From: Utricularia gibba
Lineage: Eukaryota > Streptophyta > Magnoliopsida > Lamiales > Lentibulariaceae
Direction of reading: 5' to 3'
Assembly (NCBI GenBank): GCA_002189035.1
Contig: NEEC01000061.1
Coordinates: 17,576 to 81,575, forward strand
DNA length: 64,000 bases
A model generated the notes under the pieces. It was not told the origin of the DNA, searched no databases, and worked only from the letters and a program-made list of their open reading frames with translations. This document shows positions 3,922 to 64,000 of the stretch, one piece after another; position 1 is the first letter of the stretch, and the number at the start of each line of letters is the position of its first letter. The position numbers and the translations under genes are program-made.

Positions 3922-5691
3922 TGGGGACATTGCGACTCCTTTGCTCGTTTTTATGCGAAAACTAATCTCGGCTTGCGAAACACGCGTGATTCGTTAATAT
4001 ATGTCAAAATCTTGAATTTCGCGGCATTCTCATGCGTTTCTACGGGTGTGCTCGGGCCCTGGGACTTCCTACACCAAGGGGTGGCCTCGCGCAGCCATCG
4101 CCATTGACGCCACATCGTCCAAACCGTTTAGATTCACGCGACACACAGCATACCGTTTCGAAGCTCATTCCGAGACGGTCGTTTTTCGTGTTGGGAGCTT
4201 GCCCATCCGAGGAAAGTTCGATGCTCGAAGGATGGCCTTATATTAGACTTCAATAGTGTCCAAAATGGTCTAGCCATTGGGGACATCGCGACTCCTTTGC
4301 TCGTTTTTATGCGAAAATTATTCTCGGATTGCGAAACACGCGTGATTCGTTAATATATGTCAAAATCTTGAATTTCGCGGCATTCTCATGCGTTTCTCCG
4401 AGTGTGCTCGGGCCCTGGGAATTCCTACACCAAGGGTGGGCCTCGCGCATCCTTCGCAATTGACGCCACAACTCCCAAACCGTTTAGAGTCACGTGGCAT
4501 AAAGAAATTCGTTTCGAAGCTCATTCGGAGTCGGTCGTTTTTCGTGTTGCGAACTCGCCTATCTGAGGAAAGTTCGAAGCTCGAAGGATGGCCCTATATT
4601 AGCCTTCAATGGTGTCACAAAATGGTCTAGCCATTGGGACGTTGGGACTCGTTTGCTCGTTTTTATGCGAAAACTAATCTCGGCTTGCGAAACACGCGTG
4701 ATTCGTTAATATATGTCAAAATCTTGAATTTCGCGGCATTCTCATGCGTTTCTCCGAGTGTGCTCGGGCCCTGGGAATTCCTACACCAAGGGTGGCCTCG
4801 CGCATCCTTCGCAATAGACGCCACAACTCCAAACCGTTTAGAGTCACGTGGCATAAAGAAATTCGTTTCGAAGCTCATTATGATTCGGTCGTTTTTCGTG
4901 TTGCAACTCACCCATCTGAGAAAGTTCGAAGCTCGAAGGATGGCCCTATATTAGCCTTCAATGGTGTCACAAAATGGTCTAGCCATTGGGACATTGCGAC
5001 TCCTTTGCTCGTTTTTATGCGAAAATTATTCTCGGATTGCGAAACACGCGTGATTCGTTAATATATGTCAAAATCTTGAATTTCGCGGCATTCTCATGCG
5101 TTTCTCGAGTGTGCTCGGCCCTGGGAATTCCTACACAAGGGTGGGCCTCGCGCATCCTTCGCAATTGACGCCACAACTCCCAAACCGTTTAGAGTCACGT
5201 GGCATAAAGAAATTCGTTTCGAAGCTCATTCGGAGTCGGTCGTTTTTCGTGTTGCGAACTCGCCATCTGAGGAAAGTTCGAAGCTCGAAGGATGGCCCTA
5301 TATTAGCCTTCAATGGTGTCACAAAATGGTCTAGCCATTGGGGACGTTGGACTCTTTGCTCGTTTTTATGCGAAAACTAATCTCGGCTTGCGAAACACGT
5401 GATTCGTTAATATATGTCAAAATCTTGAATTTCGCGGCATTCTCATGCGTTTCTCCGAGTGTGCTCGGGCCCTGGGAATTCCTACACCAAGGGTGGGCCT
5501 CGCGCATCCTTCGCAATAGACGCCACAACTCCCAAACCGTTTAGAGTCACGTGGCATAAAGAAATTCGTTTCGAAGCTCATTATGATTCGGTCGTTTTTC
5601 GTGTTGCGAACTCACCCATCTGAGGAAAGTTCGAAGCTCGAAGGATGGCCCTATATTAGCCTTCAATGGTGTCACAAAATGGTCTAGCCAT
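3922..5691. repeat. Higher-order repeat copy 3 (B-A1-A2-A1-A2)
   Basis: Monomers start at 3922 (B), 4278 (A1), 4635 (A2), 4987 (A1) and 5339 (A2), 1770 bp in all. The monomers at 4635, 4987 and 5339 carry a cluster of one-base losses (for example 'ccattgggac', 'aagggtggcc', 'ctcgagtg', 'gttggactctttg', 'aacacgtgatt'), so damage is concentrated in about 1 kb of this copy. Confidence 0.9.
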
Positions 5692-7471
5692 TGGGGACAT
5701 TGCGACTCCTTTGCTCGTTTTTATGCGAAAACTAATCTCGGCTTGCGAAACACGCGTGATTCGTTAATATATGTCAAAATCTTGAATTTCGCGGCATTCT
5801 CATGCGTTTCTACGGTGTGCTCGGGCCCTGGGACTTCCTACACCAAGGGGTGGCCTCGCGCAGCCATCGCGCATTGACGCCACATCGTCCAAACCGTTTA
5901 GATTCACGCGACACACAGCATACCGTTTCGAAGCTCATTCCGAGACGGTCGTTTTTCGTGTTGGGAGCTTGCCCATCCGAGGAAAGTTCGATGCTCGAAG
6001 GATGGCCTTATATTAGACTTCAATAGTGTCCCAAAATGGTCTAGCCATTGGGGACATCGCGACTCCTTTGCTCGTTTTTATGCGAAAATTATTCTCGGAT
6101 TGCGAAACACGCGTGATTCGTTAATATATGTCAAAATCTTGAATTTCGCGGCATTCTCATGCGTTTCTCCGAGTGTGCTCGGGCCCTGGGAATTCCTACA
6201 CCAAGGGTGGGCCTCGCGCATCCTTCGCAATTGACGCCACAACTCCCAAACCGTTTAGAGTCACGTGGCATAAAGAAATTCGTTTCGAAGCTCATTCGGA
6301 GTCGGTCGTTTTTCGTGTTGCGAACTCGCCTATCTGAGGAAAGTTCGAAGCTCGAAGGATGGCCCTATATTAGCCTTCAATGGTGTCACAAAATGGTCTA
6401 GCCATTGGGGACGTTGGGACTCGTTTGCTCGTTTTTATGCGAAAACTAATCTCGGCTTGCGAAACACGCGTGATTCGTTAATATATGTCAAAATCTTGAA
6501 TTTCGCGGCATTCTCATGCGTTTCTCCGAGTGTGCTCGGGCCCTGGGAATTCCTACACCAAGGGTGGGCCTCGCGCATCCTTCGCAATAGACGCCACAAC
6601 TCCCAAACCGTTTAGAGTCACGTGGCATAAAGAAATTCGTTTCGAAGCTCATTATGATTCGGTCGTTTTTCGTGTTGCCAACTCACCCATCTGAGGAAAG
6701 TTCGAAGCTCGAAGGATGGCCCTATATTAGCCTTCAATGGTGTCACAAAATGGTCTAGCCATTGGGGACATTGCGACTCCTTTGCTCGTTTTTATGCGAA
6801 AATTATTCTCGGATTGCGAAACACGCGTGATTCGTTAATATATGTCAAAATCTTGAATTTCGCGGCATTCTCATGCGTTTCTCCGAGTGTGCTCGGGCCC
6901 TGGGAATTCCTACACCAAGGGTGGGCCTCGCGCATCCTTCGCAATTGACGCCACAACTCCCAAACCGTTTAGAGTCACGTGGCATAAAGAAATTCGTTTC
7001 GAAGCTCATTCGGAGTCGGTCGTTTTTCGTGTTGCGAACTCGCCTATCTGAGGAAAGTTCGAAGCTCGAAGGATGGCCCTATATTAGCCTTCAATGGTGT
7101 CACAAAATGGTCTAGCCATTGGGGACGTTGGGACTCGTTTGCTCGTTTTTATGCGAAAACTAATCTCGGCTTGCGAAACACGCGTGATTCGTTAATATAT
7201 GTCAAAATCTTGAATTTCGCGGCATTCTCATGCGTTTCTCCGAGTGTGCTCGGGCCCTGGGAATTCCTACACCAAGGGTGGCCTCGCGCATCCTTCGCAA
7301 TTGACGCCACAACTCCCAAACCGTTTAGAGTCACGTGGCATAAAGAAATTCGTTTCGAAGCTCATTATGACGGTCGTTTTTCGTGTTGGAACTCACCCAT
7401 CGAGGAAAGTTCGAAGCTCGAAGGATGGCCCTATATTAGCCTTCAATGGTGTCACAAAATGGTCTAGCCAT
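5692..7471. repeat. Higher-order repeat copy 4 (B-A1-A2-A1-A2)
   Basis: Monomers start at 5692 (B), 6049 (A1), 6406 (A2), 6763 (A1) and 7120 (A2), 1780 bp in all. The B copy has small changes ('ctacggtg', 'catcgcgcattg'). The last A2 (7120) reads 'caattgacg' and 'cattatgacggtcg', so it is partly converted towards other types. Confidence 0.9.
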
Positions 7472-8539
7472 TGGGGACATTGCGACTCCTTTGCTCGTTT
7501 TTATGCGAAAACTAATCTCGGCTTGCGAAACACGCGTGATTCGTTAATATATGTCAAAATCTTGAATTTCGCGGCATTCTCATGCGTTTCTACGGGTGTG
7601 CTCGGCCCTGGGACTTCCTACACCAAGGGGTGGCCTCGCGCAGCCTCGCCATTGACGCCACATCGTCCAAACCGTTTAGAGTCACGCGACACACAGCATA
7701 CCGTTTCGAAGCTCATTCGAGACGGTCGTTTTTTGTGTTGGGAGCTTGCCCATCCGAGGAAAGTTCGAAGCTCGAAGGATGGCCTTATATTAGACTTCAA
7801 TAGTGTCCCAAAATGGTCTAGCCATTGGGGACATCGCGACTCCTTTGCTCGTTTTTATGCGAAAATTATTCTCGGATTGCGAAACACGCGTGATTCGTTA
7901 ATATATGTCAAAATCTTGAATTTCGCGGCATTCTCATGCGTTTCTCCGAGTGTGCTCGGGCCCTGGGAATTCCTACACCAAGGGTGGGCCTCGCGCATCC
8001 TTCGCAATTGACGCCACAACTCCCAAACCGTTTAGAGTCACGTGGCATAAAGAAATTCGTTTCGAAGCTCATTCGGAGTCGGTCGTTTTTCGTGTTGCGA
8101 ACTCGCCTATCTGAGGAAAGTTCGAAGCTCGAAGGATGGCCCTATATTAGCCTTCAATGGTGTCACAAAATGGTCTAGCCATTGGGGACATTGCGACTCC
8201 TTTGCTCGTTTTTATGCGAAAACTAATCTCGGCTTGCGAAACACGCGTGATTCGTTAATATATGTCAAAATCTTGAATTTCGCGGCATTCTCATGCGTTT
8301 CTCCGAGTGTGCTCGGGCCCTGGGAATTCCTACACCAAGGGTGGGCCTCGCGCATCCTTCGCAATAGACGCCACAACTCCCAAACCGTTTAGAGTCACGT
8401 GGCATAAAGAAATTCGTTTCGAAGCTCATTATGATTCGGTCGTTTTTCGTGTTGCCAACTCACCCATCTGAGGAAAGTTCGAAGCTCGAAGGATGGCCCT
8501 ATATTAGCCTTCAATGGTGTCACAAAATGGTCTAGCCAT
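7472..8539. repeat. Truncated higher-order repeat copy 5 (B-A1-A2)
   Basis: Monomers start at 7472 (B-like, with 'cctcgccattg' and 'gagtcacgcgac'), 7826 (A1) and 8183 (A2). The expected fourth and fifth monomers are absent: a type C monomer starts at 8540. The regular pentamer phase ends here, and the A2 at 8183 has an 'attgcg' head instead of 'gttggg', consistent with a recombination junction close by. Confidence 0.85.
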
Positions 8540-11382
8540 TGGGGACATTGCGACTCCTTTGCTCGTTTTTATGCGAAAACTAATCTCGGCTTGCGAAACA
8601 CGTGATTCGTTAATATATGTCAAAATCTTGAATTTCGCGGCATTCTCATGCGTTTCTCCGAGTGTGCTCGGGCCCTGGGAATTCCTACCTTAAGGGTGGC
8701 CTCGCGCAGCCTTCGCAATTGACGCCACAACTTCCAAACCGTTTAGAGTCACGTGGCACAAGCAATTCGTTTCGAAGCTCATTCTGAGACGGTCAATTTT
8801 CGTGTTGCGAACTCGCCCATCCGAGGAAAGTTCGAAGCTCGAAGGATGGCCTTATATTAGCCTTCAATGGTTTCAGAAATGGTCTAGCCATTGGGACATT
8901 GCGACTCCTTTGCTCGTTTTTATGCGAAAACTAATCTCGGCTTGCGAAACACGCGTGATTCGTTAATATATGTGAAAATCTTGAATTTCGCGGCATTCTC
9001 ATGCGTTTCTACGGGTGTGCTCGGGCCCTGGACTTCCTACACCAAGGGTGGCCTCGCGCAGCCATCGCCATTGACGCCACATCGTCCAAACCGTTTAGAT
9101 TCACGCGACACACAGCATACCGTTTCGAAGCTCATTCCGAGACGGTCGTTTTTCGTGTTGGGAGCTTGCCCATCCGAGGAAAGTTCGATGCTCGAAGGAT
9201 GGCCTTATATTAGACTTCAATAGTGTCCCAAAATGGTCTAGCCATTGGGGACATCGCGACTCCTTTGCTCGTTTTTATGCGAAAATTATTCTCGGATTGC
9301 GAAACACGCATGATTCGTTAATATATGTCAAAATCTTGAATTTCGCGGCATTCTCATGCGTTTCTCCGAGTGTGCTCGGGCCCTGGGAATTCCTACACCA
9401 AGGGTGGGCCTCGCGCATCCTTCGCAATTGACGCCACAACTCCCAAACCGTTTAGAGTCACGTGGCATAAAGAAATTCGTTTCGAAGCTCATTCTGAGTC
9501 GGTCGTTTTTCGTGTTGCGAACTCGCCCATCTGAGGAAAGTTCGAAGCTCGAAGGATGGCCCTATATTAGCCTTCAATGGTGTCACAAAATGGTCTAGCC
9601 ATTGGGGACATCGCGACTCCTTTGCTCGTTTTTATGCGAAAAATTATCTCGGATTGCGAAACACGCGTGATTCGTTAATATATGTCAAAATCTTGAATTT
9701 CGCGGCATTCTCATGCGTTTCTCCGAGTGTGCTCGGGCCCTGGGAATTCCTACACCAAGGGTGGGCCTCGCGCATCCTTCGCAATTGACGCCACAACTCC
9801 CAAACCGTTTAGAGTCACGTGGCATAAAGAAATTCGTTTCGAAGCTCATTCGGAGTCGGTCGTTTTTCGTGTTGCGAACTCGCCTATCTGAGGAAAGTTC
9901 GAAGCTCGAAGGATGGCCCTATATTAGCCTTCAATGGTGTCACAAAATGGTCTAGCCATTGGGGACGTTGGGACTCGTTTGCTCGTTTTTATGCGAAAAC
10001 TAATCTCGGCTTGCGAAACACGCGTGATTCGTTAATATATGTCAAAATCTTGAATTTCGCGGCATTCTCATGCGTTTCTCCGAGTGTGCTCGGGCCCTGG
10101 GAATTCCTACACCAAGGGTGGGCCTCGCGCATCCTTCGCAATGACGCCACAACTCCCAAACCGTTTAGAGTCACGTGGCATAAAGAAATTCGTTTCGAAG
10201 CTCATTATGATTCGGTCGTTTTTCGTGTTGCGAACTCACCCATCTGAGGAAAGTTCGAAGCTCGAAGGATGGCCCTATATTAGCCTTCAATGGTGTCACA
10301 AAATGGTCTAGCCATTGGGGACATTGCGACTCCTTTGCTCGTTTTTATGCGAAAACTAATCTCGGCTTGCGAAACACGCGTGATTCGTTAATATATGTCA
10401 AAATCTTGAATTTCGCGGCATTCTCATGCGTTTCTACGGGTGTGCTCGGGCCCTGGGACTTCCTACACCAAGGGTGGCCTCGCGCAGCCATCGCCATTGA
10501 CGCCACATCGTCCAAACCGTTTAGATTCACGCGACACACAGCATACCGTTTCGAAGCTCATTCCGAGACGGTCGTTTTTCGTGTTGGGAGCTTGCCCATC
10601 CGAGGAAAGTTCGATGCTCGAAGGATGGCCTTATATTAGACTTCAATAGTGTCCCAAAATGGTCTAGCCATTGGGGACATCGCGACTCCTTTGCTCGTTT
10701 TTATGCGAAAATTATTCTCGGATTGCGAAACACGCGTGATTCGTTAATATATGTCAAAATCTTGAATTTCGCGGCATTCTCATGCGTTTCTCCGAGTGTG
10801 CTCGGGCCTGGGAATTCCTACACCAAGGTGGGCCTCGCGCATCCTTCGCAATTGACGCCACAACTCCCAAACCGTTTAGAGTCACGTGGCATAAAGAAAT
10901 TCGTTTCGAAGCTCATTCGAGTCGGTCGTTTTTCGTGTTGCGAACTCGCCTATCTGAGGAAAGTTCGAAGCTCGAAGGATGGCCCTATATTAGCCTTCAA
11001 TGGTGTCACAAAATGGTCTAGCCATTGGGGACGTTGGGACTCGTTTGCTCGTTTTTATGCGAAAACTAATCTCGGCTTGCGAAACACGCGTGATTCGTTA
11101 ATATATGTCAAAATCTTGAATTTCGCGGCATTCTCATGCGTTTCTCCGAGTGTGCTCGGGCCCTGGGAATTCCTACACCAAGGGTGGGCCTCGCGCATCC
11201 TTCGCAATAGACGCCACAACTCCCAAACCGTTTAGAGTCACGTGGCATAAAGAAATTCGTTTCGAAGCTCATTATGATTCGGTCGTTTTTCGTGTTGCCA
11301 ACTCACCCATCTGAGGAAAGTTCGAAGCTCGAAGGATGGCCCTATATTAGCCTTCAATGGTGTCACAAAATGGTCTAGCCAT
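8540..11382. repeat. Eight-monomer block C-B-A1'-A1-A2-B-A1-A2
   Basis: Monomers start at 8540 (C), 8892 (B), 9246 (A1'), 9603 (A1), 9960 (A2), 10316 (B), 10672 (A1) and 11026 (A2); the next C is at 11383, 2843 bp after the first. A1' denotes an A1 copy carrying CACGCATG instead of CACGCGTG. The A/B parts are the same variants as in the pentamer, but B now recurs every fourth monomer. Confidence 0.82.
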
Positions 11383-13509
11383 TGGGGACATTGCGACTCC
11401 TTTGCTCGTTTTTATGCGAAAACTAATCTCGGCTTGCGAAACACGCGTGATTCGTTAATATATGTCAAAATCTTGAATTTCGCGGCATTCTCATGCGTTT
11501 CTCCGAGTGTGCTCGGGCCCTGGGAATTCCTACCAAGGGTGGCCTCGCGCAGCCTTCGCAATTGACGCCACAACTTCCAAACCGTTTAGAGTCACGTGGC
11601 ACAAAGCAATTCGTTTCGAAGCTCATTCTGAGACGGTCGTTTTTCGTGTTGCGAACTCGCCCATCCGAGGAAAGTTCGAAGCTCGAAGGATGGCCTTATA
11701 TTAGCCTTCAATGGTTCAGAAATGGTCTAGCCATTGGGGACATTGCGACTCCTTTGCTCGTTTTTATCGAAAACTAATCTCGGCTTGCGAAACACGCGTG
11801 ATTCGTTAATATATGTCAAAATCTTGAATTTCGCGGCATTCTCATGCGTTTCTACGGGTGTGCTCGGGCCCTGGACTTCCTACACCAAGGGGTGGCCTCG
11901 CGCAGCCATCGCCATTGACGCCACATCGTCCAAACCGTTTAGATTCACGCGACACACAGCATACCGTTTCGAAGCTCATTCCGAGACGGTCGTTTTTCGT
12001 GTTGGGAGCTTGCCCATCCGAGGAAAGTTCGATGCTCGAAGGATGGCCTTATATTAGACTTCAATAGTGTCCCAAAATGGTCTAGCCATTGGGGACATCG
12101 CGACTCCTTTGCTCGTTTTTATGCGAAAATTATTCTCGGATTGCGAAACACGCATGATTCGTTAATATATGTCAAAAACTTGAATTTCGCGGCATTCTCA
12201 TGCGTTTCTCCGAGTGTGCTCGGGCCTGGGAATTCCTACACCAAGGGTGGCCTCGCGCATCCTTCGCAATTGACGCCACAACTCCCAAACCGTTTAGAGT
12301 CACGTGGCATAAAGAAATTCGTTTCGAAGCTCATTCTGAGTCGGTCGTTTTTCGTGTTGCGAACTCGCCCATCTGAGGAAAGTTCGAAGCTCGAAGGATG
12401 GCCCTATATTAGCCTTCAATGGTGTCACAAAATGGTCTAGCCATTGGGACGTTGGGACTCGTTTGCTCGTTTTTATGCGAAAACTAATCTCGGCTTGCGA
12501 AACACGCGTGATTCGTTAATATATGTCAAAATCTTGAATTTCGCGGCATTCTCATGCGTTTCTCCGAGTGTGCTCGGGCCCTGGGAATTCCTACATTAAG
12601 GGGTGGCCTCGCGCAGCCTTCGCCATTGACGCCACATCGTCCAAACCGTTTAGAGTCACGCGACACACAGCATACCGTTTCGAAGCTCATTCTGAGACGA
12701 TCGTTTTTCGTGTTGGAGTTCGCCCATCCGAGGAAAGTTCGAAGCTCGACGGATGGCCCTATATAAGCCTTGAATGGTGTCACAAATGGCCTAGCCATTG
12801 GGGACATCGCGACTCCTTTGCTCGTTTTTATGCGAAAATTATTCTCGGATTGCGAAACACGCGTGATTCGTTAATATATGTCAAAATCTTGAATTTCGCG
12901 GCATTCTCATGCGTTTCTCCGAGTGTGCTCGGGCCCTGGGAATTCCTACACCAAGGGTGGGCCTCGCGCATCCTTCGCAATTGACGCCACAACTCCCAAA
13001 CCGTTTAGAGTCACGTGGCATAAAGAAATTCGTTTCGAAGCTCATTATGATTCGGTCGTTTTTCGTGTTGCGAACTCGCCCATCTGAGGAAAGTTCGAAG
13101 CTCGAAGGATGGCCCTATATTAGCCTTCAATGGTGTCACAAAATGGTCTAGCCATTGGGGACATTGCGACTCCTTTGCTCGTTTTTATGCGAAAACTAAT
13201 CTCGGCTTGCGAAACACGCGTGATTCGTTAATATATGTCAAAATCTTGAATTTCGCGGCATTCTCATGCGTTTCTACGGGTGTGCTCGGGCCCTGGGACT
13301 TCCTACACCAAGGGTGGCCTCGCGCAGCCATCGCCATTGACGCCACATCGTCCAAACCGTTTAGATCACGCGACACACAGCATACCGTTTCGAAGCTCAT
13401 TCCGAGACGGTCGTTTTTCGTGTTGGGAGCTTGCCCATCCGAGGAAAGTTCGATGCTCGAAGGATGGCCTTATATTAGACTTCAATGTGTCCCAAAATGG
13501 TCTAGCCAT
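11383..13509. repeat. Six-monomer block C-B-A1'-D-A-B, copy 1
   Basis: Monomers start at 11383 (C), 11735 (B), 12090 (A1'), 12445 (D), 12799 (A with 'tatgattcgg' and 'ctcgcccatctga') and 13156 (B). This is the first place where a D monomer ('ctacattaag', TATATAAG) appears. The B at 11735 has the one-base loss 'tttttatcgaaaac', shared with B copies at 15647 and 18873. Confidence 0.82.
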
Positions 13510-15289
13510 TGGGGACATCGCGACTCCTTTGCTCGTTTTTATGCGAAAATTATTCTCGGATTGCGAAACACGCGTGATTCGTTAATATATGTCAAAATCT
13601 TGAATTTCGCGGCATTCTCATGCGTTTCTCCGAGTGTGCTCGGGCCCTGGGAATTCCTACACCAAGGGTGGGCCTCGCGCATCCTTCGCAATTGACGCCA
13701 CAACTCCCAAACCGTTTAGAGTCACGTGGCATAAAGAAATTCGTTTCGAAGCTCATTCGGAGTCGGTCGTTTTTCGTGTTGCGAACTCGCCTATCTGAGG
13801 AAAGTTCGAAGCTCGAAGGATGGCCCTATATTAGCCTTCAATGGTGTCACAAATGGCCTAGCCATTGGGGACATCGCGACTCCTTTGCTCGTTTTTATGC
13901 GAAAATTATTCTCGGATTGCGAAACACGCGTGATTCGTTAATATATGTCAAAATCTTGAATTTCGCGGCATTCTCATGCGTTTCTACGGTGTGCTCGGGC
14001 CCTGGGAATTCCTACATTAAGGGGTGGCCTCGCGCAGCCTTCGCCATTGACGCCACATCGTCCAAACCGTTTAGAGTCACGTGGCACAAAGCATTTCGTT
14101 TCGAAGCTCATTCCGAGACGGTCGTTTTTCGTGTTGGGAGCTTGCCCATCCGAGGAAAGTTCGATGCTCGAAGGATGGCCTTATATTAGACTTCAATGGT
14201 GTCACAAAATGGTCTAGCCATTGGGGACGTTGGGACTCGTTTGCTCGTTTTTATGCGAAAACTAATCTCGGCTTGCGAAACACGCGTGATTCGTTAATAT
14301 ATGTCAAAATCTTGAATTTCGCGGCATTCTCATGCGTTTCTCCGAGTGTGCTCGGGCCCTGGGAATTCCTACACCAAGGGTGGCCTCGCGCATCCTTCGC
14401 AATAGACGCCACAACTCCCAAACCGTTTAGAGTCACGTGGCATAAAGAAATTCGTTTCGAAGCTCATTATGATTCGGTCGTTTTTCGTGTTGCGAACTCA
14501 CCCATCTGAGGAAAGTTCGAAGCTCGAAGGATGGCCCTATATTAGCCTTCAATGGTGTCACAAAATGGTCTAGCCATTGGGGACATCGCGACTCCTTTGC
14601 TCGTTTTTATGCGAAAATTATTCTCGGATTGCGAAACACGCGTGATTCGTTAATATATGTCAAAATCTTGAATTTCGCGGCATTCTCATGCGTTTCTCCG
14701 AGTGTGCTCGGGCCCTGGGAATTCCTACACCAAGGGTGGCCTCGCGCATCCTTCGCAATTGACGCCACAACTCCCAAACCGTTTAGAGTCACATGGCATA
14801 AAGAAATTCGTTTCGAAGCTCATTCGAGTCGGTCGTTTTTCGTGTTGCGAACTCGCCTATCTGAGGAAAGTTCGAAGCTCGAAGGATGGCCCTATATTAG
14901 CCTTCAATGGTGTCACAAAATGGTCTAGCCATTGGGGACGTTGGGACTCGTTTGCTTGTTTTTATGCGAAAACTAATCTCGGCTTGCGAAACACGCGTGA
15001 TTCGTTAATATATGTCAAAATCTTGAATTTCGCGGCATTCTCATGCGTTTCTCCGAGTGTGCTCGGGCCCTGGGAATTCCTACACCAAGGGTGGGCCTCG
15101 CGCATCCTTCGCAATAGACGCCACAACTCCCAAACCGTTTAGAGTCACGTGGCATAAAGAAATTCGTTTCGAAGCTCATTATGATTCGGTCGTTTTTCGT
15201 GTTGCCAACTCACCCATCTGAGGAAAGTTCGAAGCTCGAAGGATGGCCCTATATTAGCCTTCAATGGTGTCACAAAATGGTCTAGCCAT
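13510..15289. repeat. Five-monomer A-rich block with one mosaic monomer
   Basis: Monomers start at 13510 (A1), 13866 (mosaic), 14222 (A2), 14578 (A1) and 14933 (A2). The monomer at 13866 combines a D-like front ('ctacattaag'), a C-like middle ('cacgtggcacaaagc') and a B-like tail ('gatgctcg', 'ttagacttcaatgg'). It is either a recombinant or a mis-joined consensus. Confidence 0.78.
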
Positions 15290-15646
15290 TGGGGACATTG
15301 CGACTCCTTTGCTCGTTTTTATGCGAAAACTAATCTCGGCTTGCGAAACACACGTGATTCGTTAATATATGTCAAAATCTTGAATTTCGCGGCATTCTCA
15401 TGCGTTTCTCCGAGTGTGTTCGGGCCCTGGGAATTCCTACCTTAAGGGGTGGCCTCGCGCAGCCTTCGCAATTGACGCCACAACTTCCAAACCGTTTAGA
15501 GTCACGTGGCACAAAGCAATTCGTTTCGAAGCTCATTCTGAGACGGTCAATTTTCGTGTTGCGAACTCGCCCATCCGAGGAAAGTTCGAAGCTCGAAGGA
15601 TGGCCTTATATTAGCCTTCAATGGTTTCAGAAAATGGTCTAGCCAT
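15290..15646. repeat. Reference monomer of satellite type C
   Basis: This is a full 357 bp copy. It has 'ctaccttaagggg', 'gcagccttcgcaattg', 'acaacttccaaacc', CACGTGGCACAAAGC, 'gagacggtcaatttt' and 'atggtttcagaaa'. Related C copies start at 8540, 11383 and 18492. Type C joins D-like features in the middle with the CACGTGGC of type A. Confidence 0.85.
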
Positions 15647-17428
15647 TGGGGACATTGCGACTCCTTTGCTCGTTTTTATCGAAAACTAATCTCGGCTTGC
15701 GAAACACGCGTGATTCGTTAATATATGTGAAAATCTTGAATTTCGCGGCATTGTCATGCGTTTCTACGGGTGTGCTCGGGCCCTGTGACTTCCTACACCA
15801 AGGGTGGCCTCGCGCAGCCATCGCCATTGACGCCACATCGTCCAAACCGTTTAGATTCACGCGACACACAGCATACCGTTTCGAAGCTCATTCCGAGACG
15901 GTCGTTTTTCGTGTTGGGAGCTTGCCCATCCGAGGAAAGTTCGATGCTCGAAGGATGGCCTTATATTAGACTTCAATAGTGTCCCAAAATGGTCTAGCCA
16001 TTGGGGACATCGCGACTCCTTTGCTCGTTTTTATGCGAAAATTATTCTCGGATTGCGAAACACGCATGATTCGTTAATATATATCAAAATCTTGAATTTC
16101 GCGGCATTCTCATGCGTTTCTCCGAGTGTGCTCGGGCCCTGGGAATTCCTACACCAAGGGTGGGCCTCGCGCATCCTTCGCAATTGACGCCACAACTCCC
16201 AAACCGTTTAGAGTCACGTGGCATAAAGAAATTCGTTTCGAAGCTCATTCGGAGTCGGTCGTTTTTCGTGTTGCGAACTCGCCTATCTGAGGAAAGTTCG
16301 AAGCTCGAAGGATGGCCCTATATTAGCCTTCAATGGTGTCACAAAATGGTCTAGCCATTGGGGACGTTGGGACTCGTTTGCTCGTTTTTATGCGAAAACT
16401 AATCTCGGCTTGCGAAACACGCGTGATTCGTTAATATATGTCAAAATCTTGAATTTCGCGGCATTCTCATGCGTTTCTCCGAGTGTGCTCGGGCCCTGGG
16501 AATTCCTACATTAAGGGGTGGCCTCGCGCAGCCTTCGCCATTGACGCCACATCGTCCAAACCGTTTAGAGTCACGCGACACACAGCATACCGTTTCGAAG
16601 CTCTTTCTGAGACGATCATTTTTCGTGTTGGGAGTTCGCCCATCCGAGGAAAGTTCGAAGCTCGACGGATGGCCCTATATAAGCCTTGAATGGTGTCACA
16701 ATATGGCCTAGCCATTGGGGACATCGCGACTCCTTTGCTCGTTTTTATGCGAAAATTATTCTCGGATTGCGAAACACGCGTGATTCGTTAATATATGTCA
16801 AAATCTTGAATTTCGCGGCATTCTCATGCGTTTCTCCGAGTGTGCTCGGGCCCTGGGAATTCCTACACCAAGGGTGGGCCTCGCGCATCCTTCGCAATTG
16901 ACGCCACAACTCCCAAACCGTTTAGAGTCACGTGGCATAAAGAAATTCGTTTCGAAGCTCATTATGATTCGGTCGTTTTCGTGTTGCGAACTCGCCCATC
17001 TGAGGAAAGTTCGAAGCTCGAAGGATGGCCCTATATTAGCCTTCAATGGTGTCACAAAATGGTCTAGCCATTGGGGACATTGCGACTCCTTTGCTCGTTT
17101 TTATGCGAAAACTAATCTCGGCTTGCGAAACACGCGTGATTCGTTAATATATGTCAAAATCTTGAATTTCGCGGCATTCTCATGCGTTTCTACGGGTGTG
17201 CTCGGGCCCTGGGACTTCCTACACCAAGGGGTGGCCTCGCGCAGCCATCGCCATTGACGCCACATCGTCCAAACCGTTTAGATTCACGCGACACACAGCA
17301 TACCGTTTCGAAGCTCATTCCGAGACGGTCGTTTTTCGTGTTGGGAGCTTGCCCATCCGAGGAAAGTTCGAAGCTCGAAGGATGGCCTTATATTAGCCTT
17401 CAATGGTGTCCCAAAATGGTCTAGCCAT
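15290..17428. repeat. Six-monomer block C-B-A1'-D-A-B, copy 2
   Basis: Monomers start at 15290 (C), 15647 (B), 16002 (A1'), 16359 (D), 16716 (A) and 17072 (B). Type order and rare marks match the block at 11383, including CACGCATG in A1' and 'tttttatcgaaaac' in B, 3907 bp away. The shared rare marks support common descent of the two blocks rather than chance order. Confidence 0.82.
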
Positions 17429-18491
17429 TGGGACATCGCGACTCCTTTGCTCGTTTTTATGCGAAAATTATTCTCGGATTGCGAAACACGCGTGATTCGT
17501 TAATATATGTCAAAATCTTGAATTTCGCGGCATTCTCATGCGTTTCTCCGAGTGTGCTCGGGCCTGGGAATTCCTACATTAAGGGGTGGCCTCGCGCAGC
17601 CTTCGCCATTGACGCCACATCGTCCAAACCGTTTAGAGTCACGCGACACAAGCATACCGTTTCGAAGCTCATTCTGAGACGATCGTTTTTTCGTGTTGGG
17701 AGTTCGCCCATCGAGGAAAGTTCGAAGCTCGACGGATGGCCCTATATAAGCCTTGAATGGTGTCACAAAATGGCCTAGCCATTGGGGACATCGCGACTCC
17801 TTTGCTCGTTTTTATGCGAAAATTATTCTCGGATTGCGAAACACGCGTGATTCGTTAATATATGTCAAAATCTTGAATTTCGCGGCATTCTCATGCGCGT
17901 TTCCGTGTGCTCGGGCCCTGGGAATTCCTACATTAAGGGGTGCCTCGCGCAGCCTTCGCCATTGACGCCACACATCGTCCAAACCGTTTAGAGTCACGTG
18001 GCACAAAGCATTTCGTTTCGAAGCTCATTCGAGACGGTCGTTTTTCGTGTTGGGAGCTTGCCCATCCGAGGAAAGTTCGAGCTCGAAGGATGGCCCTATA
18101 TTAGCCTTCAATGGTGTCCCAAAATGGTCTAGCCATTGGGGACATCGCGACTCCTTTGCTCGTTTTTATGCGAAAATTATTCTCGGATTGCGAAACACGC
18201 GTGATTCGTTAATATATGTCAAAATCTTGAATTTCGCGGCATTCTCATGCGTTTCTCCGAGTGTGCTCGGGCCCTGGAATTCCTACACCAAGGGTGTGGC
18301 CTCGCGCATCCTTCGCAATTGACGCCACACTCCCAAACCGTTTAGAGTCACGTGCATAAAGAAATTCGTTTCGAAGCTCATTTATGATTCGGTCGTTTTT
18401 CGTGTTGGAACTCACCCATCTGAGGAAAGTTCGAAGCTCGAAGGATGGCCCTATATTAGCCTTCAATGGTGTCACAAAATGGTCTAGCCAT
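17429..18491. repeat. Three mixed monomers at the end of the A-type domain
   Basis: Monomers start at 17429 (D), 17783 (D/C mosaic with 'gcgcgtttccgtg', 'acacatcgtcc' and CACGTGGC) and 18137 (A). The last is the final monomer in the window with the 'gcgcatcc' mark (about 18,302-18,310) and with 'tatgattcgg' (about 18,384). It carries several small indels ('gggtgtggcc', 'cacactccc', 'cacgtgcata', 'catttatgat'). Confidence 0.78.
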
Positions 18492-18872
18492 TGGGGACAT
18501 TGCGACTCCTTTGCTCGTTTTTATGCGAAAACTAATCTCGGCTTGCGAAACACACGTGATTCGTTAATATATGTCAAAATCTTGAATTTCGCGGCATTCT
18601 CATGCGTTTCTCCGAGTGTGTTCGGGCCCTGGGAATTCCTACAAAGGGGTGGCCTCGCGCAGCCTTCGCATTGACGCCACAACTTCCAAACCGTTTAGAG
18701 TCACGCACAACTTCCAAACCGTTTAGAGTCACGTGGCACAAAGCAATTCGTTTCGAAGCTCATTCTGAGACGGTCAATTTTCGTGTTGCGAACTCGCCCA
18801 TCCGAGGAAAGTTCGAAGCTCGAAGGATGGCCTTATATTAGCCTTCAATGGTTTCAAAAGTGGTCTAGCCAT
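18492..18872. repeat. Enlarged type C monomer (381 bp)
   Basis: This C copy is 381 bp, longer than any ordinary monomer, because of a 28 bp internal direct duplication. Otherwise it has C marks ('cttccaaacc', CACGTGGCACAAAGC, 'gagacggtcaatttt') and reads 'gtgtgttcggg', a substitution it shares with the C monomer at 15290. Confidence 0.85.
18679..18734. repeat. 28 bp tandem duplication inside a monomer
   Basis: Positions 18679-18706 and 18707-18734 are the same 28 bp, beginning ACAACTTCCAAACCG and ending GAGTCACG plus one base; they differ only at that last base (C versus T). The first copy ends like an 'acgc' (B/D) monomer and the second like an 'acgt' (A/C) monomer. Confidence 0.9.
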
Positions 18873-21800
18873 TGGGGACATTGCGACTCCTTTGCTCGTT
18901 TTTATCGAAAACTAATCTCGGCTTGCGAAACACGCGTGATTCGTTAATATATGTCAAAATCTTGAATTTCGCGGCATTCTCATGCGTTTCTACGGGTGTG
19001 CTCGGGCCCTGGGACTTCCTACACCAAGGGGTGGCCTCGCGCAGCCTCGCCATTGACGCCACATCGTCCAAACCGTTTAGAGTCACGCGACACACAGCAT
19101 ACCGTTTCGAAGCTCATTCCGAGACGGTCGTTTTTCGTGTTGGGAGCTTGCCCATCCGAGGAAAGTTCGAAGCTCGAAGGATGGCCTATATTAGCCTTCA
19201 ATGGTGTCCAAAAATGGTCTAGCCATTGGGGACATCGCGACTCCTTTGCTCGTTTTTATGCGAAAATTATTCTCGGATTGCGAAACACGCGTGATTCGTT
19301 AATATATGTCAAAATCTTGAATTTCGCGGCATTCTCATGCGTTTCTCCGAGTGTGCTCGGGCCCTGGGAATTCCTACACCAAGGGTGGGCCTCGCGCAGC
19401 CTTCGCAATTGACGCCACATCCAAACCGTTTAGAGTCACGTGGCCGTTTCGAAGCTCATTCGAGACGGTCGTTTTTCGTGTTGGAACTCGCCCATCCGAG
19501 GAAAGTTCGAAGCTCGAAGGATGGCCCTATATTAGCCTTCAATGGTGTCACAAAATGGTCTAGCCATTGGGGACGTTGGGACTCGTTTGCTCGTTTTTAT
19601 GCGAAAATAATCTCGGCTTGCGAAACACGCGTGATTCGTTAATATATGTCAAAATCTTGAATTTCGCGGCATTCTCATGCGTTTCTCCGAGTGTGCTCGG
19701 GCCCTGGGAATTCCTACATTAAGGGGTGGCCTCGCGCAGCCTTCGCCATTGACGCCACATCGTCCAAACCGTTTAGAGTCACGCGACACACAGCATACCG
19801 TTTCGAAGCTCATTCTGAGACGTCGTTTTTCGTGTTGGGAGTTCGCCCATCCGAGGAAAGTTCGAAGCTCGACGGATGGCCCTATATAAGCCTTGAATGG
19901 TGTCACAAAATGGCCTAGCCATTGGGGACATTGCGACTCCTTTGCTCGTTTTTATGCGAAAATTATTCTCGGATTGCGAAACACGCGTGATTCGTTAATA
20001 TATGTCAAAATCTTGAATTTCGCGGCATTCTCATGCGTTTCTCCGAGTGTGCTCGGGCCCTGGGAATTCCTACACCAAGGGTGGCCTCGCGCAGCCTTCG
20101 CATTGACGCCACAACTCCCAAACCGTTTAGAGTCACGTGGCATAAAGCATTCGTTTCGAAGCTCATTCTGACGGTCGTTTTTCGTGTTGGAACTCGCCCA
20201 TCCGAGGAAAGTTCGAAGCTCGAAGGATGGCCCTATATTAGCCTTCAATGGTGTCACAAAATGGTCTAGCCATTGGGGACATTGCGACTCCTTTGCTCGT
20301 TTTTATGCGAAAACTAATCTCGGCTTGCGAAACACGCGTGATTCGTTAATATATGTCAAAATCTTGAATTTCGCGGCATTCTCATGCGTTTCTCGGTGTG
20401 CTCGGGCCCTGGGACTTCCTACACCAAGGGGTGGCCTCGCGCAGCCTTCGCCATTGACGCCACATCGTCCAAACCGTTTAGAGTCACGCGACACACAGCA
20501 TACCGTTTCGAAGCTCATTCCGAGACGGTCGTTTTTCGTGTTGGGAGCTTGCCCATCCGAGGAAAGTTCGAAGCTCGAAGGATGGCCTTATATTAGCCTT
20601 CAATGGTGTCACAAAATGGTCTAGCCATTGGGGACATCGCGACTCCTTTGCTCGTTTTTATGCGAAAATTATTCTCGGATTGCGAAACACGCGTGATTCG
20701 TTAATATATGTCAAAATCTTGAATTTCGCGGCATTCTCATGCGTTTCTCCGAGTGTGCTCGGGCCTGGGAATTCCTACATTAAGGGGTGGCCTCGCGCAG
20801 CCTTCGCATTGACGCCACATCGTCCAAACCGTTTAGAGTCACGCGACACACAGCATACCGTTTCGAAGCTCATTCTGAGACGTCGTTTTTCGTGTTGGGA
20901 GTTCGCCCATCCGAGGAAAGTTCGAAGCTCGACGGATGGCCCTATATAAGCCTTGAATGGTGTCACAAAATGGCCTAGCCATTGGGGACATCGCGACTCC
21001 TTTGCTCGTTTTTATGCGAAAATTATTCTCGGATTGCGAAACACGCGTGATTCGTTAATATATGTCAAAATCTTGAATTTCGCGGCATTCTCATGCGTTT
21101 CTACGGGTGTGCTCGGGCCCTGGGAATTCCTACATTAAGGGGTGGCCTCGCGCAGCCTTCGCCATTGACGCCACATCGTCCAAACCGTTTAGAGTCACGC
21201 GACACAAGCATTCGTTTCGAAGCTCATTCCGAGACGGTCGTTTTTCGTGTTGGGAGCTTGCCCATCCGAGGAAAGTTCGAAGCTCGAAGGATGGCCTATA
21301 TTAGCCTTCAATGGTGTCACAAAATGGTCTAGCCATTGGGGACATCGCGACTCCTTTGCTCGTTTTTATGCGAAAATTATTCTCGGATTGCGAAACACGC
21401 GTGATTCGTTAATATATGTCAAAATCTTGAATTTCGCGGCATTCTCATGCGTTTCTCCGAGTGTGCTCGGGCCCTGGGAATTCCTACACCAAGGGTGGCC
21501 TCGCGCAGCCTTCGCATTGACGCCACAACTCCCAAACCGTTTAGAGTCACGCGCACAAAGAAATTCGTTTCGAAGCTCATTCTGACGGTCGTTTTTCGTG
21601 TTGGAACTCGCCCATCGAGGAAAGTTCGAAGCTCGAAGGATGGCCCTATATTAGCCTTCAATGGTGTCACAAAATGGTCTAGCCATTGGGGACATTGCGA
21701 CTCCTTTGCTCGTTTTTATGCGAAAACTAATCTCGGCTTGCGAAACACGCGTGATTCGTTAATATATGTCAAAATCTTGAATTTCGCGGCATTCTCATGC

Positions 21801-39360: not shown

Positions 39361-39417
39361 TTTCGCGGCATTCTCATGCGTTTCTAGTGTGCTCGGGCCC
39401 TGGGAATTCCTACACCA

Positions 39418-44735: not shown

Positions 44736-47084
44736 AAACACGCGTGATTCGTTAATATATGTCAAAATCTTGAATTTCGCGGCATTCTCATGCGTTTCTC
44801 CGAGTGTGCTCGGGCCCTGGGAATTCCTACATTAAGGGGTGGCCTCGCGCAGCCTTCGCATTGACGCCACATCGTCCAAACCGTTTAGAGTCACGCGACA
44901 CACAGCATACCGTTTCGAAGCTCATTCTGAGACGGTCGTTTTTCGTGTTGGGAGCTTGCCCATCCGAGGAAAGTTCGAAGCTCGAAGGATGGCCTATATT
45001 AGCCTTCAATGGTGTCACAAAATGGTCTAGCCATTGGGGACATTGCGACTCCTTTGCTCGTTTTTATGCGAAAATTTCTCGGCTTGCGAAACACGCGTGA
45101 TTCGTTAATATATGTCAAAATCTTGAATTTCGCGGCATTCTCATGCGTTTCTAGTGTGCTCGGGCCCTGGGAATTCGGGGTGGCCTCGCGCAGCCTTCGC
45201 CATTGACGCCACATCGTCCAAACCGTTTAGAGTCACGCGACACACAGCATACCGTTTCGAAGCTCATTCTGAGACGTCGTTTTTCGTGTGGGAGTTCGCC
45301 CATCCGAGGAAAGTTCGAAGCTCGAGGATGGCCCTATATAAGCCTTGAATGGTGTCACAAAATGGCCTAGCCATTGGGGACGTTGCGACTGCTCGTTTTT
45401 ATGCGAAAATTTTCTCGGATTGCGAAACACGCGTGATTCGTTAATATATGTCAAAATCTTGAATTTCGCGGCATTCTCATGCGTGGGTGTGCTCGGGCCC
45501 GGGACTTCCTACACCAAGGGGTGGCCTCGCGCAGCCTTCGCCATTGACGCCACATCGTCCAAACCGTTTAGAGTCACGCGACACACAGCATACCGTTTCG
45601 AAGCTCATTCTGAGACGTCGTTTTTCGTGTTGGGAGTTCGCCCATCCGAGGAAAGTTCGAAGCTCGAGGATGGCCCTATATAAGCCTTGAATGGTGTCAC
45701 AAAATGGAGCCATTGGGGACGTTGGACTCTTTGCTCGTTTTTATGCCTCGGCTTGCGAAACACGCGTGATTCGTTAATATATGTCAAAATCGAATTTCGC
45801 GGCATTCTCATGCGTTTCTCCGAGTGTGCTCGGGCCCTGGGATTCCTACATTAAGGGGTGGCCTCGCGCAGCCTTCGCCATTGACGCCACATCGTCCAAA
45901 CCGTTTAGAGTCACGCGACACACAGCATACCGTTTCGAAGCTCATTCCGAGACGGTCGTTTTTCGTGTTGGAGCTTGCCCATCCGAGGAAAGTTCGAAGC
46001 TCGAAGGATGGCCTATATTAGCCTTCAATGGTGTCAAAATGGTCTAGCCATTGGGGACGTTGCGACTCCTTTGCTCGTTTTTATGCGAAAATTATTCTCG
46101 GATTGCGAAACACGCGTGATTCGTTAATATATGTCAAAATCTTGAATTTCGCGGCATTCTCATGCGTTTCTCCGAGTGTGCTCGGGGCCCTGGGAATTCC
46201 TACATTAAGGGGTGGCCTCGCGCAGCCTTCGCCATTGACGCCACATCGTCCAAACCGTTTAGAGTCACGCGACACACAGCATTCGTTTCGAAGCTCATTC
46301 TGAGACGGTCGTTTTTCGTGTTGGGAGTTGCCCATCCGAGGAAAGTTCGAAGCTCGAAGGATGGCCTATAAGCCTTGAATGGTGTCACAAAATGGTCTAG
46401 CCATTGGGGACGTTCGACTCCTTTGCTCGTTTTTATGCGAAAATTTTCTCGGATTGCGAAAACACGCGTGATTCGTTAATATATGTCAAAATCTTGAATT
46501 TCGCGGCATTCTCATGCGTTTCCGAGTGTGCTCGGGCCCTGGATTCCTACACCAAGGGTGGCCTCGCGCAGCCTTCGCCATTGACGCCACATCGTCCAAA
46601 CCGTTTAGAGTCACGCGACACACAGCATACCGTTTCGAAGCTCATTCTGAGACGATCGTTTTTCGTGTTGGGAGTTCGCCCATCCGAGGAAAGTTCGAAG
46701 CTCGAGGATGGCCCTATATTAGCCTTGAATGGTGTCACAAAATGGCCTAGCCATTGGGGACGTTGCGACTCCTTTGCTCGTTTTTATGCGAAAATTATTC
46801 TCGGATTGCGAAACACGCGTGATTCGTTAATATATGTCAAAATCTTGAATTTCGCGGCATTCTCATGCGTTTCTCCGAGTGTGCTCGGGCCCTGGAATTC
46901 CTACATTAAGGGGTGGCCTCGCGCAGCCTTCGCATTGACGCCACATCGTCCAAACCGTTTAGAGTCACGACACAAAGCATACCGTTTCGAAGCTCATTCG
47001 AGACGGTCGTTTTTCGTGTTGGGAGCTTGCCCATCCGAGGAAAGTTCGAAGCTCGAAGGATGGCCTTATATTAGCCTTCAATGG

Positions 47085-47175
47085 TCGACAAAAAACTGGT
47101 CTAGCCATTTCGGGGACATTGCGACTCCTTTGCTCGTTTTTATGCGAAAACTTCTCGGCTTTTGCGAATGCGACA
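47085..47175. repeat. Monomer junction with small insertions
   Basis: The usual 'ggtgtcacaaaatggtctag' appears as 'ggtcgacaaaaaactgg' then 'tctagccatttcgggg'. The next head has 'cttctcggcttttgcgaatg' and 'cgacacgcgtg', insertions of a few bases relative to all neighbours. Insertions are otherwise rare in this window, where losses dominate. Confidence 0.7.
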
Positions 47176-47333
47176 CGCGTGATTCGTTAATATATGTCAA
47201 AATCTTGAATTTCGCGGCATTCTCATGCGTTTCTCCGAGTGTGCTCGGGCCCTGGGAATTCCTACATTAAGGGGTGGCCTCGCGCAGCCTTCGCATTGAC
47301 GCCACATCGTCCAAACCGTTTAGAGTCACGCGA

Positions 47334-47440
47334 CACATGTCGCAAACGCGTTTAGCCTTCGCTCGCGACACCCATTGGGGACGTTGCGACTCCTTTGCTC
47401 GTTTTTATGCGAAAACGTTTCGAAGTCTCGCGATGAGAAT
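47334..47440. repeat. Truncated and rejoined monomers
   Basis: From 'cacgcgacacatg' the sequence goes to 'tcgcaaacgcgtttagcc' and 'ttcgctcgcgacacc' and directly to a new head 'cattggggacgttgcg', omitting the second half of a monomer. After 'tatgcgaaaacg' it jumps through 'tttcgaagtctcgcgatg' to 'agaattcctacattaagg', omitting the first half of the next one. Confidence 0.72.
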
Positions 47441-47629
47441 TCCTACATTAAGGGGTGGCCTCGCGCATTCGCCATTGACGCCACATCGTCCAAACCGTTT
47501 AGAGTCACGCGACACACAGCATACCGTTTCGAAGCTCATTCGAGACGTCGTTTTTCGTGTTGGGAGATCCGAGGAAAGTTCGAAGCTCGACGGATGGCCC
47601 TATATAAGCCTTGAATGGTGTCACAAAAT

Positions 47630-47880
47630 GGTCCTTGTTGCGCATGCGAAAATGGGAGCGAAAGTTTCGCTCGACGGATGGTTGCTCGTTTCCTATAAGA
47701 AAATTGTTGTCGGATTGAACGAAACCGCGGGTGACGGTCGTTACATCCTCCTTTGCTCGTTTTTATGCGAAAACTCAAACATCGGAATTTCGCGGCATTC
47801 TCATGCGTTTCTACGGGTGTGCTCGGGCCCTGGGATTCGATTGACGTCAATATATGTCGAAAATCGTTTTTCGAGTTCGC
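47630..47880. repeat. Scrambled satellite patch with most novel bases
   Basis: A normal D tail ends in 'gtcacaaaatggtcc' and is followed by about 120 bp in which monomer words ('atgcgaaaat', 'ctcgacggatgg', 'ttgctcgttt', 'gaaaattgtt', 'tcggattg') are linked by unmatched bases ('gggagcgaaagtttcg', 'cctataag', 'aacgaaaccgcgggtgacgg', 'tcgttacatc'). A second, shortened monomer follows, with 'actcaaacatcgg' and 'gggattcgattgacgtc'. Normal sequence resumes at 'gttcgcccatccgagg'. Confidence 0.72.
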
Positions 47881-47956
47881 CCATCCGAGGAAAGTTCGAA
47901 GCTCGACGGATGGCCCTATATAAGCCTTGAATGGTGTCACAAAATGGCCTAGCCAT

Positions 47957-50900
47957 TGGGGACGTTGACTCCTTTGCTCGTTTTTATGCGAAAATTGTTC
48001 TCGGATTGCGAAACACGCGTGATTCGTTAATATATGTCAAAATCTTGAATTTCGCGGCATTCTCATGCGTTTCTCCGAGTGTGCTCGGGCCCTGGAATTC
48101 CTACATTAAGGGGGCCTCACGCAGCCTTCGCATTGACGCCACATCTCCAAACCGTTTAGAGTCACGCGACACAAGCATACCGTTTCGAAGCTCATTCTGA
48201 GACGGTCGTTTTTCGTGTTGGGAGCTTGCCCATCCGAGGAAAGTTCGAAGCTCGAAGGATGGCCTTATATTAGCCTTCAATGGTTCAAAAGTGGTCTAGC
48301 CATTGGGGACATTGCGACTCCTTTGCTCGTTTTTATGCGAAAATATCTCGGCTTGCGAAACACGCGTGATTCGTTAATATATGTCAAAATCTTGAATTTC
48401 GCGGCATTCTCATGCGTTTCTCCAGTGTGCTCGGGCCCTGGGAATTCTACATTAAGGGGTGGCCTCGCGCAGCCTTCGCATTGACGCCACATCGTCCAAA
48501 CCGTTTAGAGTCACGCGACACAAAGCATACCGTTTCGAAGCTCATTCTGAGACGATCGTTTTTCGTGTTGGGAGTTCGCCCATCCGAGGAAAGTTCGAAG
48601 CTCGACGGATGGCCCTATATAAGCTTGAATGGTGTCACAAAATGGCCTAGCCATTGGGGACGTTGCGACTCCTTTGCTCGTTTTTATGCGAAAATTGTTC
48701 TCGGATTGCGAAACACGCGTGATTCGTTAATATATGTCAAAATCTTGAATTTCGCGGCATTCTCATGCGTTTCTCGAGTGTGCTCGGGCCCTGGGAATTC
48801 CTACACCAAGGGGTGGCCTCGCGCAGCCTTCGCCATTGACGCCACATCGTCCAAACCGTTTAGAGTCACGCGACACACAGCATACCGTTTCGAAGCTCAT
48901 TCTGAGACGATCGTTTTTCGTGTTGGGAGTTCGCCCATCCGAGGAAAGTTCGAAGCTCGACGGATGGCCCTATATAAGCCTTGAATGGTGTCACAAAATG
49001 GCCTAGCCATTGGGGACGTTGGGATCGTTTGCTCGTTTTTATGCGAAAACTAATCTCGGCTTGCGAAACACGCGTGATTCGTTAATATATGTCAAAATCT
49101 TGAATTTCGCGGCATTCTCATGCGTTTCTCCGAGTGTGCTCGGGCCCTGGGAATTCCTACATTAAGGGGTGGCCTCGCGCAGCCTTCGCCATTGACGCCA
49201 CATCGTCCAAACCGTTTAGAGTCACGCGACACACAGCATACCGTTTCGAAGCTCATTCTGAGACGGTCGTTTTTCGTGTTGGGAGCTTGCCCATCCGAGG
49301 AAAGTTCGAAGCTCGAAGGATGGCCTTATATTAGCCTTCAATGGTTCACAAAATGGTCTAGCCATTGGGGACATTGCGACTCCTTTGCTCGTTTTTATGC
49401 GAAAATTATTCTCGGATTGCGAAACACGCGTGATTCGTTAATATATGTCAAAATCTTGAATTTCGCGGCATTCTCATGCGTTTCTCCGAGTGTGCTCGGG
49501 CCCTGGGAATTCCTACATTAAGGGGTGGCCTCGCGCAGCCTTCGCAATTGACGCCACATCTTCCAAACCGTTTAGAGTCACGCGGCACACAAGCATACGT
49601 TTCGAAGCTCATTCTGAGACGGTCGTTTTTCGTGTTGGGAGTTGCCCATCCGAGGAAAGTTCGAAGCTCGAAGGATGGCCTTATATTAGCCTTGAATGGT
49701 GTCACAAAAATGGTCTAGCCATTGGGGACATTGCGACTCCTTTGCTCGTTTTTATGCGAAAATTTTTCTCGGATTGCGAAACACGCGTGATTCGTTAATA
49801 TATGTCAAAATCTTGAATTTCGCATCATTCTCATGCGTTTCTCGAGTGTGCTCGGGCCCTGGACTTCCTACACCAAGGGGTGGCCTCGCGCAGCCTTCGC
49901 CATTGACGCCACATCGTCCAAACCGTTTAGAGTCACGCGACACACAGCATACCGTTTCGAAGCTCATTCTGAGACGATCGTTTTTCGTGTTGGGAGTTCG
50001 CCCATCCGAGGAAAGTTCGAAGCTCGACGGATGGCCCTATATAAGCCTTGAATGGTGTCACAAAATGGCCTAGCCATTGGGGACGTTGCGACTCCTTTGC
50101 TCGTTTTTATGCGAAAATTGTTCTCGGATTGCGAAACACGCGTGATTCGTTAATATATGTCAAAATCTTGAATTTCGCGGCATTCTCATGCGTTTCTCGG
50201 GTGTGCTCGGGCCCTGGACTTCCTACACCAAGGGGTGGCCTCGCGCAGCCTTCGCCATTGACGCCACATCGTCCAAACCGTTTAGAGTCACGCGACACAC
50301 AGCATACCGTTTCGAAGCTCATTCTGAGACGATCGTTTTTCGTGTTTCGCCCATCCGAGGAAAGTTCGAAGCTCGAAGGATGGCCCTATATAAGCCTTCA
50401 ATGGTGTCACAAAATGGCCTAGCCATTGGGGACGTTGGGACTCGTTTGCTCGTTTTTATGCGAAAATAATCTCGGCTTGCGAAACGCGTGATTCGTTAAT
50501 ATATGTCAAAATCTTGAATTTCGCGGCATTCTCATGCGTTTCTCCGAGTGTGCTCGGGCCCTGGGAATTCCTACATTAAGGGGTGGCCTCGCGCAGCCTT
50601 CGCCATTGACGCCACATCGTCCAAACCGTTTAGAGTCACGCGACACACAGCATACCGTTTCGAAGCTCATTCTGAGACGATCGTTTTTCGTGTTGGGAGT
50701 TCGCCCATCCGAGGAAAGTTCGAAGCTCGACGGATGGCCCTATATAAGCCTTGAATGGTGTCACAAAATGGCCTAGCCATTGGGGACGTTGGGACTCGTT
50801 TGCTCGTTTTTATGCGAAAACTAATCTCGGCTTGCGAAACACGCGTGATTCGTTAATATATGTCAAAATCTTGAATTTCGCGGCATTCTCATGCGTTTCT

Positions 50901-62900: not shown

Positions 62901-64000
62901 GGTGGCCTCGCGCAGCCTTCGCCATTGACGCCACATCGTCCAAACCGTTTAGAGTCACGCGACACACAGCATACCGTTTCGAAGCTCATTCCGAGACGGT
63001 CGTTTTTCGTGTTGGAGCTTGCCCATCCGAGGAAAGTTCGAAGCTCGAAGGATGGCCTTATATTAGCCTTCAATGTGTCCAAAATGGCCTAGCCATTGGG
63101 GACGTTGGACTCGTTTGCTCGTTTTTATGCGAAAACTAATCTCGGCTTGCGAAACACGCGTGATTCGTTAATATATGTCAAAATCTTGAATTTCGCGGCA
63201 TTCTCATGCGTTTCTCCGAGTGTGCTCGGGCCCTGGGAATTCCTACATTAAGGGGTGGCCTCGCGCAGCCTTCGCCATTGACGCCACATCGTCCAAACCG
63301 TTTAGAGTCACGCGACACACAGCATACCGTTTCGAAGCTCATTCCAGACGGTCGTTTTTCGTGTTGGGAGCTTGCCCATCCGAGGAAAGTTCGAAGCTCG
63401 AAGGATGGCCTTATATTAGCCTTCAATGGTGTCACAAAATGGTCTAGCCATTGGGGACATCGCGACTCCTTTGCTCGTTTTTATGCGAAAATTATTCTCG
63501 GATTGCGAAACACGCGTGATTCGTTAATATATGTCAAAATCTTGAATTTCGCGGCATTCTCATGCGTTTCTAGGGTGTGCTCGGGCCCGGGACTTCCTAC
63601 ACCAAGGGGTGCCTCGCGCAGCCTTCGCCATTGACGCCACATCTTCCAAACCGTTTAGAGTCACGGCACAAAGCATACCGTTTCGAAGCTCATTCTGAGA
63701 CGGTCGTTTTTCGTGTTGGGAGCTCGCCATCCGGAAAGTTCGAAGCTCGACGATGGCCTATATAAGCCTTCAATGGTGTCACAAATGGCCTAGCCATTGG
63801 GACGTTGGGACTCGTTTGCTCGTTTTTATGCGAAAATTCTCGGCTTGCGAAACACGCGTGATTCGTTAATATATGTCAAAATCCTTGAATTTCGCGGCAT
63901 TCTCATGCGTTTCTCCGAGTGTGCTCGGGCCTGGGAATTCCTACACCAAGGGGTGGCCTCGCGCAGCCTTCGCAATTGACGCCACATCTTCCAAACCGTT
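47957..64000. repeat. D/E-dominated satellite segment, right part
   Basis: About 45 monomers of D and E type in long regular succession, with no patch like those in the preceding zone. Occasional C-like copies with CACGTGGCAC occur (about 58,705 and 62,249). Some copies have GGACTTCC with 'ctacacc' (about 49,859, 50,216, 56,157 and 58,987). The last monomer starts at 63798 and is cut by the window edge. Confidence 0.87.
49011..49365. repeat. Reference monomer of satellite type E
   Basis: This 355 bp copy shares the front and middle of type D ('ctacattaagggg', 'gcagccttcgcc', 'acatcgtcc', 'cgacacacagc') but has 'gagacggtcg', 'gggagcttgccc', 'ctcgaaggatgg', TATATTAG and 'ggtctagcc'. The E tail resembles type B without its 'gatgctcg' and 'agacttcaatag' marks, so E may be a D/B recombinant. 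Confidence 0.82.

Follow-up and report, generated by a model that had tools for sequence, protein, structure and literature searches.

Single-base losses at monomer-type differences in a Utricularia gibba satellite array, probably produced by consensus calling

Consensus errors are known from merged haplotypes and collapsed repeats, where reads of different versions merge. In an HGAP study of heterozygous yeast, such errors at merged haplotypes can truncate genes (PMC5592916). Long-read consensus also retains residual homopolymer-length errors, and plant satellites may form arrays with higher-order repeats (HORs). The array described here resembles each of these systems in part. Its losses would likewise be errors where reads of different versions merge; in the described cases two haplotypes merged, whereas here the versions are tandem satellite monomers and a neighbour rule could be measured. 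Single-base losses in runs occur here too, at a low rate outside type-diagnostic sites, but for the main component run length alone is not decisive, and a second monomer type has to be present. Monomers of about 355 bp, divergent types and a five-monomer HOR in one domain are shared with plant satellite arrays, although this ordinary satellite biology leaves the losses unexplained.

The satellite array and its domains

The window analysed here is a stretch of 64,000 bp (1-64000, + strand) corresponding to positions 17576-81575 of contig C410. The full contig has 81,575 bp, all of it satellite, and belongs to an assembly of 516 contigs (100.1 Mb). This is a plant assembly, with rbcL intact on a 172-kb contig and TTTAGGG telomeres, present at both ends of one contig. 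Exact patterns were used to find the satellite across the genome. Among the places listed, it lay in four contigs (C402, C74, C385 and C410), at one end of C402, and two of the four were seen as pure satellite; at least 870 exact core copies are present in the assembly. Sampled stretches showed that it also takes up C74 (84.5 kb), the initial 10 kb or more of C385 and some 128 kb at the start of C402 (2.63 Mb). Its presence in these few contigs suggests that it occupies one chromosomal site or a small number of them.

For the alignments, the array was divided into monomers at a conserved block, 214 from C410 and later 627 from the four contigs. A column counted as diagnostic when 5% or more of the copies had a second allele, with a minimum of 10 copies in the 214-copy set. 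The following features were recognized in the window:

1-64000 (+): unbroken tandem satellite with monomers of about 353-357 bp
1-18000 (+): loss-poor domain with a regular 5-monomer HOR (about 1,785 bp), from a best lag of 5 and missing-base counts
4635-5400 (+): small loss-rich patch within the clean HOR domain, with about a dozen losses over two to three monomers
18000-64000 (+): loss-rich domain with shuffled types and one-base losses mostly at type-diagnostic positions
36171-48020 (+): peak of loss density with irregular monomer spacing (153, 478, 955, 783, 617, 426, 306 and 840 bp)

The loss-poor stretch begins about 6.5 kb upstream of the window, and the 5-monomer HOR is confined to it (about -6.5 to 18 kb), the remaining contig having shuffled types. 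Monomers miss 0.6-2.1 bases in the loss-poor domain versus 3-12 elsewhere. The HOR domain may appear clean only because its mixing partners were alike. In the patch at 4635-5400, some losses fall outside diagnostic columns, in runs like gggg and cgcg. An earlier note on this DNA had the losses start at 4,635, a position that is not special, since losses are also found at 116, at 3,043 and upstream of the window. In the 17.6 kb of C410 that precede the window, losses are enriched 4.8-fold at diagnostic sites. The irregular spacing at 36171-48020 may reflect either truncated-monomer junctions or misassembly, and an irregular stretch resembling it lies within 30-70 kb of C402.

Consensus columns 1-52 (gattcgttaatatatgtcaaaatcttgaatttcgcggcattctcatgcgttt) lack type differences in all monomers and carry 13 substitutions in 214 copies. 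This block is either a constrained element or the product of strong homogenisation. Judged from the letters, a TATA-like motif, cctatataag, is present in one monomer class and replaced by cctatattag in the other (context ...ggccctatataagccttg...). A 28-bp exact tandem duplication lies within a single monomer, at positions 18678-18733 of the window.

Losses at type-diagnostic sites and the neighbour rule

The earlier note proposed that one-base losses concentrate at the positions where monomer types differ, and the counts bear this out. In C410 within the 627-monomer alignment, losses amounted to 2.66% per site per copy at diagnostic sites versus 0.29% at non-diagnostic ones, a 9.2-fold enrichment, and the three other contigs showed enrichments of 4-12-fold. 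A shortened motif was found within a few bases of every coordinate cited in that note. Its remark that segments without type differences show few losses also agrees with the data, as the 52-base constant block holds 14 loss events in 214 copies. Typical examples are:

28876-28885 (+): gggattccta (types gggaattccta and gggacttccta); others at 30284, 34473 and 41678
20098-20105 (+): tcgcattg (types tcgcaattg and tcgccattg); others at 22923 and 48476
28149-28159 (+): tttctcgagtg (types tttctccgagtg and tttctacgggtg); the window has 33 of these

Shortened forms were a minority of each motif in the window: 11 short versus 142 full-length copies for GGATTCC, 16 versus 164 for the TCGCATTG type, 14 versus 148 for the gttggactc type, 33 versus 126 for ct(c/a)cg(a/g)gtg and 8 versus 168 for the acatctcc type.

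The enrichment holds in both alignments. In the 214-monomer alignment, single-base losses reached 1.7% per diagnostic site versus 0.39% elsewhere (p 1e-49), and 0.97% versus 0.22% (4.4-fold) when gap placement was given a tolerance of two bases on either side; the two-base tolerance gave 4.2-fold for C410 in the 627-monomer alignment. In the latter, C410 lost bases at 1.29% of diagnostic versus 0.05% of other non-homopolymer sites (25-fold), and at 4.4% versus 0.48% of homopolymer sites (9-fold). Enrichment was 6.3-fold in C74, 5.8-, 10.9- and 12.3-fold in stretches of C402 and 4.2-fold in C385, and the per-column loss profiles of three contigs were correlated (r 0.68, 0.79 and 0.85). Losses far exceed gains, with 3,087 gap cells versus 138 inserted bases in the 627-copy alignment.

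Type differences are not all equal in this respect. When one of the alleles equals the adjacent base, the loss rate is 3.8%, and when both do, 5.2%; when neither does, it is 0.2% (column 333 excluded), which is under the background. Thus, the claim that type differences are the loss sites stands for those with an allele equal to a neighbour, and fails for balanced differences that match neither neighbour. Among the latter, cttGaat/cttCaat (minor allele 33%) shows one loss in 627 copies, cggCttg/cggAttg (minor allele 31%) two and gacGttg/gacAttg one or two. Column 333 is the one exception to the rule; it belongs to a cluster of differences that lie side by side (aaactaatc/aaattattc), and a shift could occur there too. 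Since losses occur where an allele equals its neighbour and are nearly absent otherwise, the difference must be one that a longer or shorter homopolymer can also express.

The origin of the losses

The losses are very probably consensus errors of a long-read assembly in which reads from different satellite copies were pooled. In the proposed mechanism, reads of different copies would pile up and a single consensus would be called. At a type difference in which the base repeats its neighbour, two alignments of the reads would be open, one with a substitution and the other with a homopolymer-length change plus an extra base. Support would then be divided between the two alignments, so that the shortest common form would win and one base would be lost, while isolated substitutions would remain substitutions and be decided by vote. 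The losses lie at differences between versions, are not transmitted with identical copies in the HOR domain, recur in other contigs and are reproduced by the simulated consensus of mixed reads, as expected of errors from pooled copies. Pooling of the reads itself is what we infer from these observations, and the pipeline was presumably PacBio CLR with likelihood or run-wise consensus. The published Utricularia gibba assembly was made with HGAP from PacBio data (PMC5793159, PMC8333044).

Mixtures of reads from two types were simulated, their consensus was called in several ways, and losses were scored for the three neighbour classes (none, one or both alleles matching). Run-wise calling, in which base identity is decided before run length, gave losses of 0.7, 11 and 12% for the none, one and both classes, and a plurality vote 0.1, 1.0 and 1.0%. 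A one-template likelihood with PacBio-CLR-like errors gave 1.0, 2.3 and 4.8%, with fewer gains; with ONT-like errors it produced gains rather than losses. Strict-majority models yielded 13, 11 and 10% and 9, 11 and 14%. Neither strict-majority nor indel-only voting was accepted as the mechanism, since both would produce losses at isolated balanced differences (13-18% simulated), where 0.2% were observed. At the column level, the fit of the models to the data was moderate, with rho reaching 0.60 for diagnostic columns, or absent, with rho about 0 for the likelihood model (few trials). Within these models, the simulations show that pooled reads suffice for the pattern; they match the order of the classes, not every column, and do not identify the program. 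The suggestion that an assembler dropped undecided bases is therefore retained as far as a consensus artefact from mixed reads is concerned, but not as simple majority dropping, which fails at isolated differences.

It is unlikely that the shortened motifs are instead real deletion alleles, true satellite variants propagated through unequal exchange and gene conversion. They do recur across several contigs, as old shared alleles would, and near-identical monomers across all contigs share losses twice as often as expected. Within the HOR domain, however, rare substitutions are inherited together with the copies bearing them, and losses are not. Among HOR-domain copies identical at all scored diagnostic sites, 202 of 361 rare substitutions were shared (56%), against 30 of 257 losses (12%; 10% expected), so losses there were not inherited, which fits a consensus artefact. 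For the whole contig, the proportions shared were 62% of rare substitutions versus 9% of losses. In the loss-rich domain, only 6% of rare substitutions were shared, and the copies are too diverse for an inheritance test. Deletion alleles common to duplication-related copies were sought and not found beyond the expected level in the HOR domain, the test being weak elsewhere. Moreover, inheritance gives no reason why an allele should have to equal its neighbour, or why balanced isolated differences should be almost free of losses. Private substitutions are not enriched at the places of loss: their density changes little along the monomer (0.27% near diagnostic sites versus 0.22% elsewhere, 1.2-fold), which rules out a mutation-prone region as the cause.

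Less credible still is plain homopolymer error of noisy reads from unmixed copies. Run-length-dependent residual error explains a minority of the losses, as outside diagnostic zones the rate rises from 0.06% at single bases to 0.23% in runs of two and 0.62% in runs of three or more. Nevertheless, diagnostic single bases (1.2%) and diagnostic two-base runs (3.6%) exceed even the non-diagnostic runs of three or more, and long constant runs lose bases less often than diagnostic runs of two. A loss rate set by run length regardless of type differences was thus not found in the comparison of diagnostic runs of two with non-diagnostic runs of three or more.

Two biological processes would place real losses at type differences. 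One would be mutation or repair that takes out a single base at a type mismatch beside an identical base, acting anew in every copy at a pace that homogenisation does not match; it is highly improbable. Deletion of mismatched bases when different types pair, for example during heteroduplex repair in gene conversion, would likewise spare constant blocks, but it can hardly be credited, given that mismatches matching no neighbour should be affected equally and are not, and that losses are not consistently located at type switches. We know of no one-base excision bias of the heteroduplex-repair kind.

Monomer mosaicism and reading of the array

If the losses are consensus errors, according to the earlier note, many monomers would be blends and a mosaic reading of the right half would be unsafe. 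The caution stands, because diagnostic sites separated by more than 120 bp show almost no linkage in the loss-rich parts (r2 0.024 versus 0.25 in the clean part). This fits either blending or long-standing recombination. The losses, on the other hand, are not consistently placed between flanks of differing type. No association of losses with type-discordant flanks was found in C410 (35.6% at losses versus 33.0% in the comparison, p 0.39), and the corresponding values were 39.0 versus 46.5% in C74 and 42.0 versus 34.4% in C402. As losses are not consistently tied to type switches, they are no proof that the mosaics are artefacts.

In the limited collection of literature searched, no description of the neighbour rule itself was found; the support was general and concerned errors at merged haplotypes. 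With the rule, tandem repeats can be tested for collapsed consensus without reads, by comparing losses at type differences with an allele equal to the adjacent base and losses at those without. If these losses are artefactual, C410 is not a safe source for monomer lengths, motif counts or type assignments, and neither are C74, C402 and C385. The biological interest of the losses is low, and their use lies in the warning that they give for this satellite and in the read-free test.
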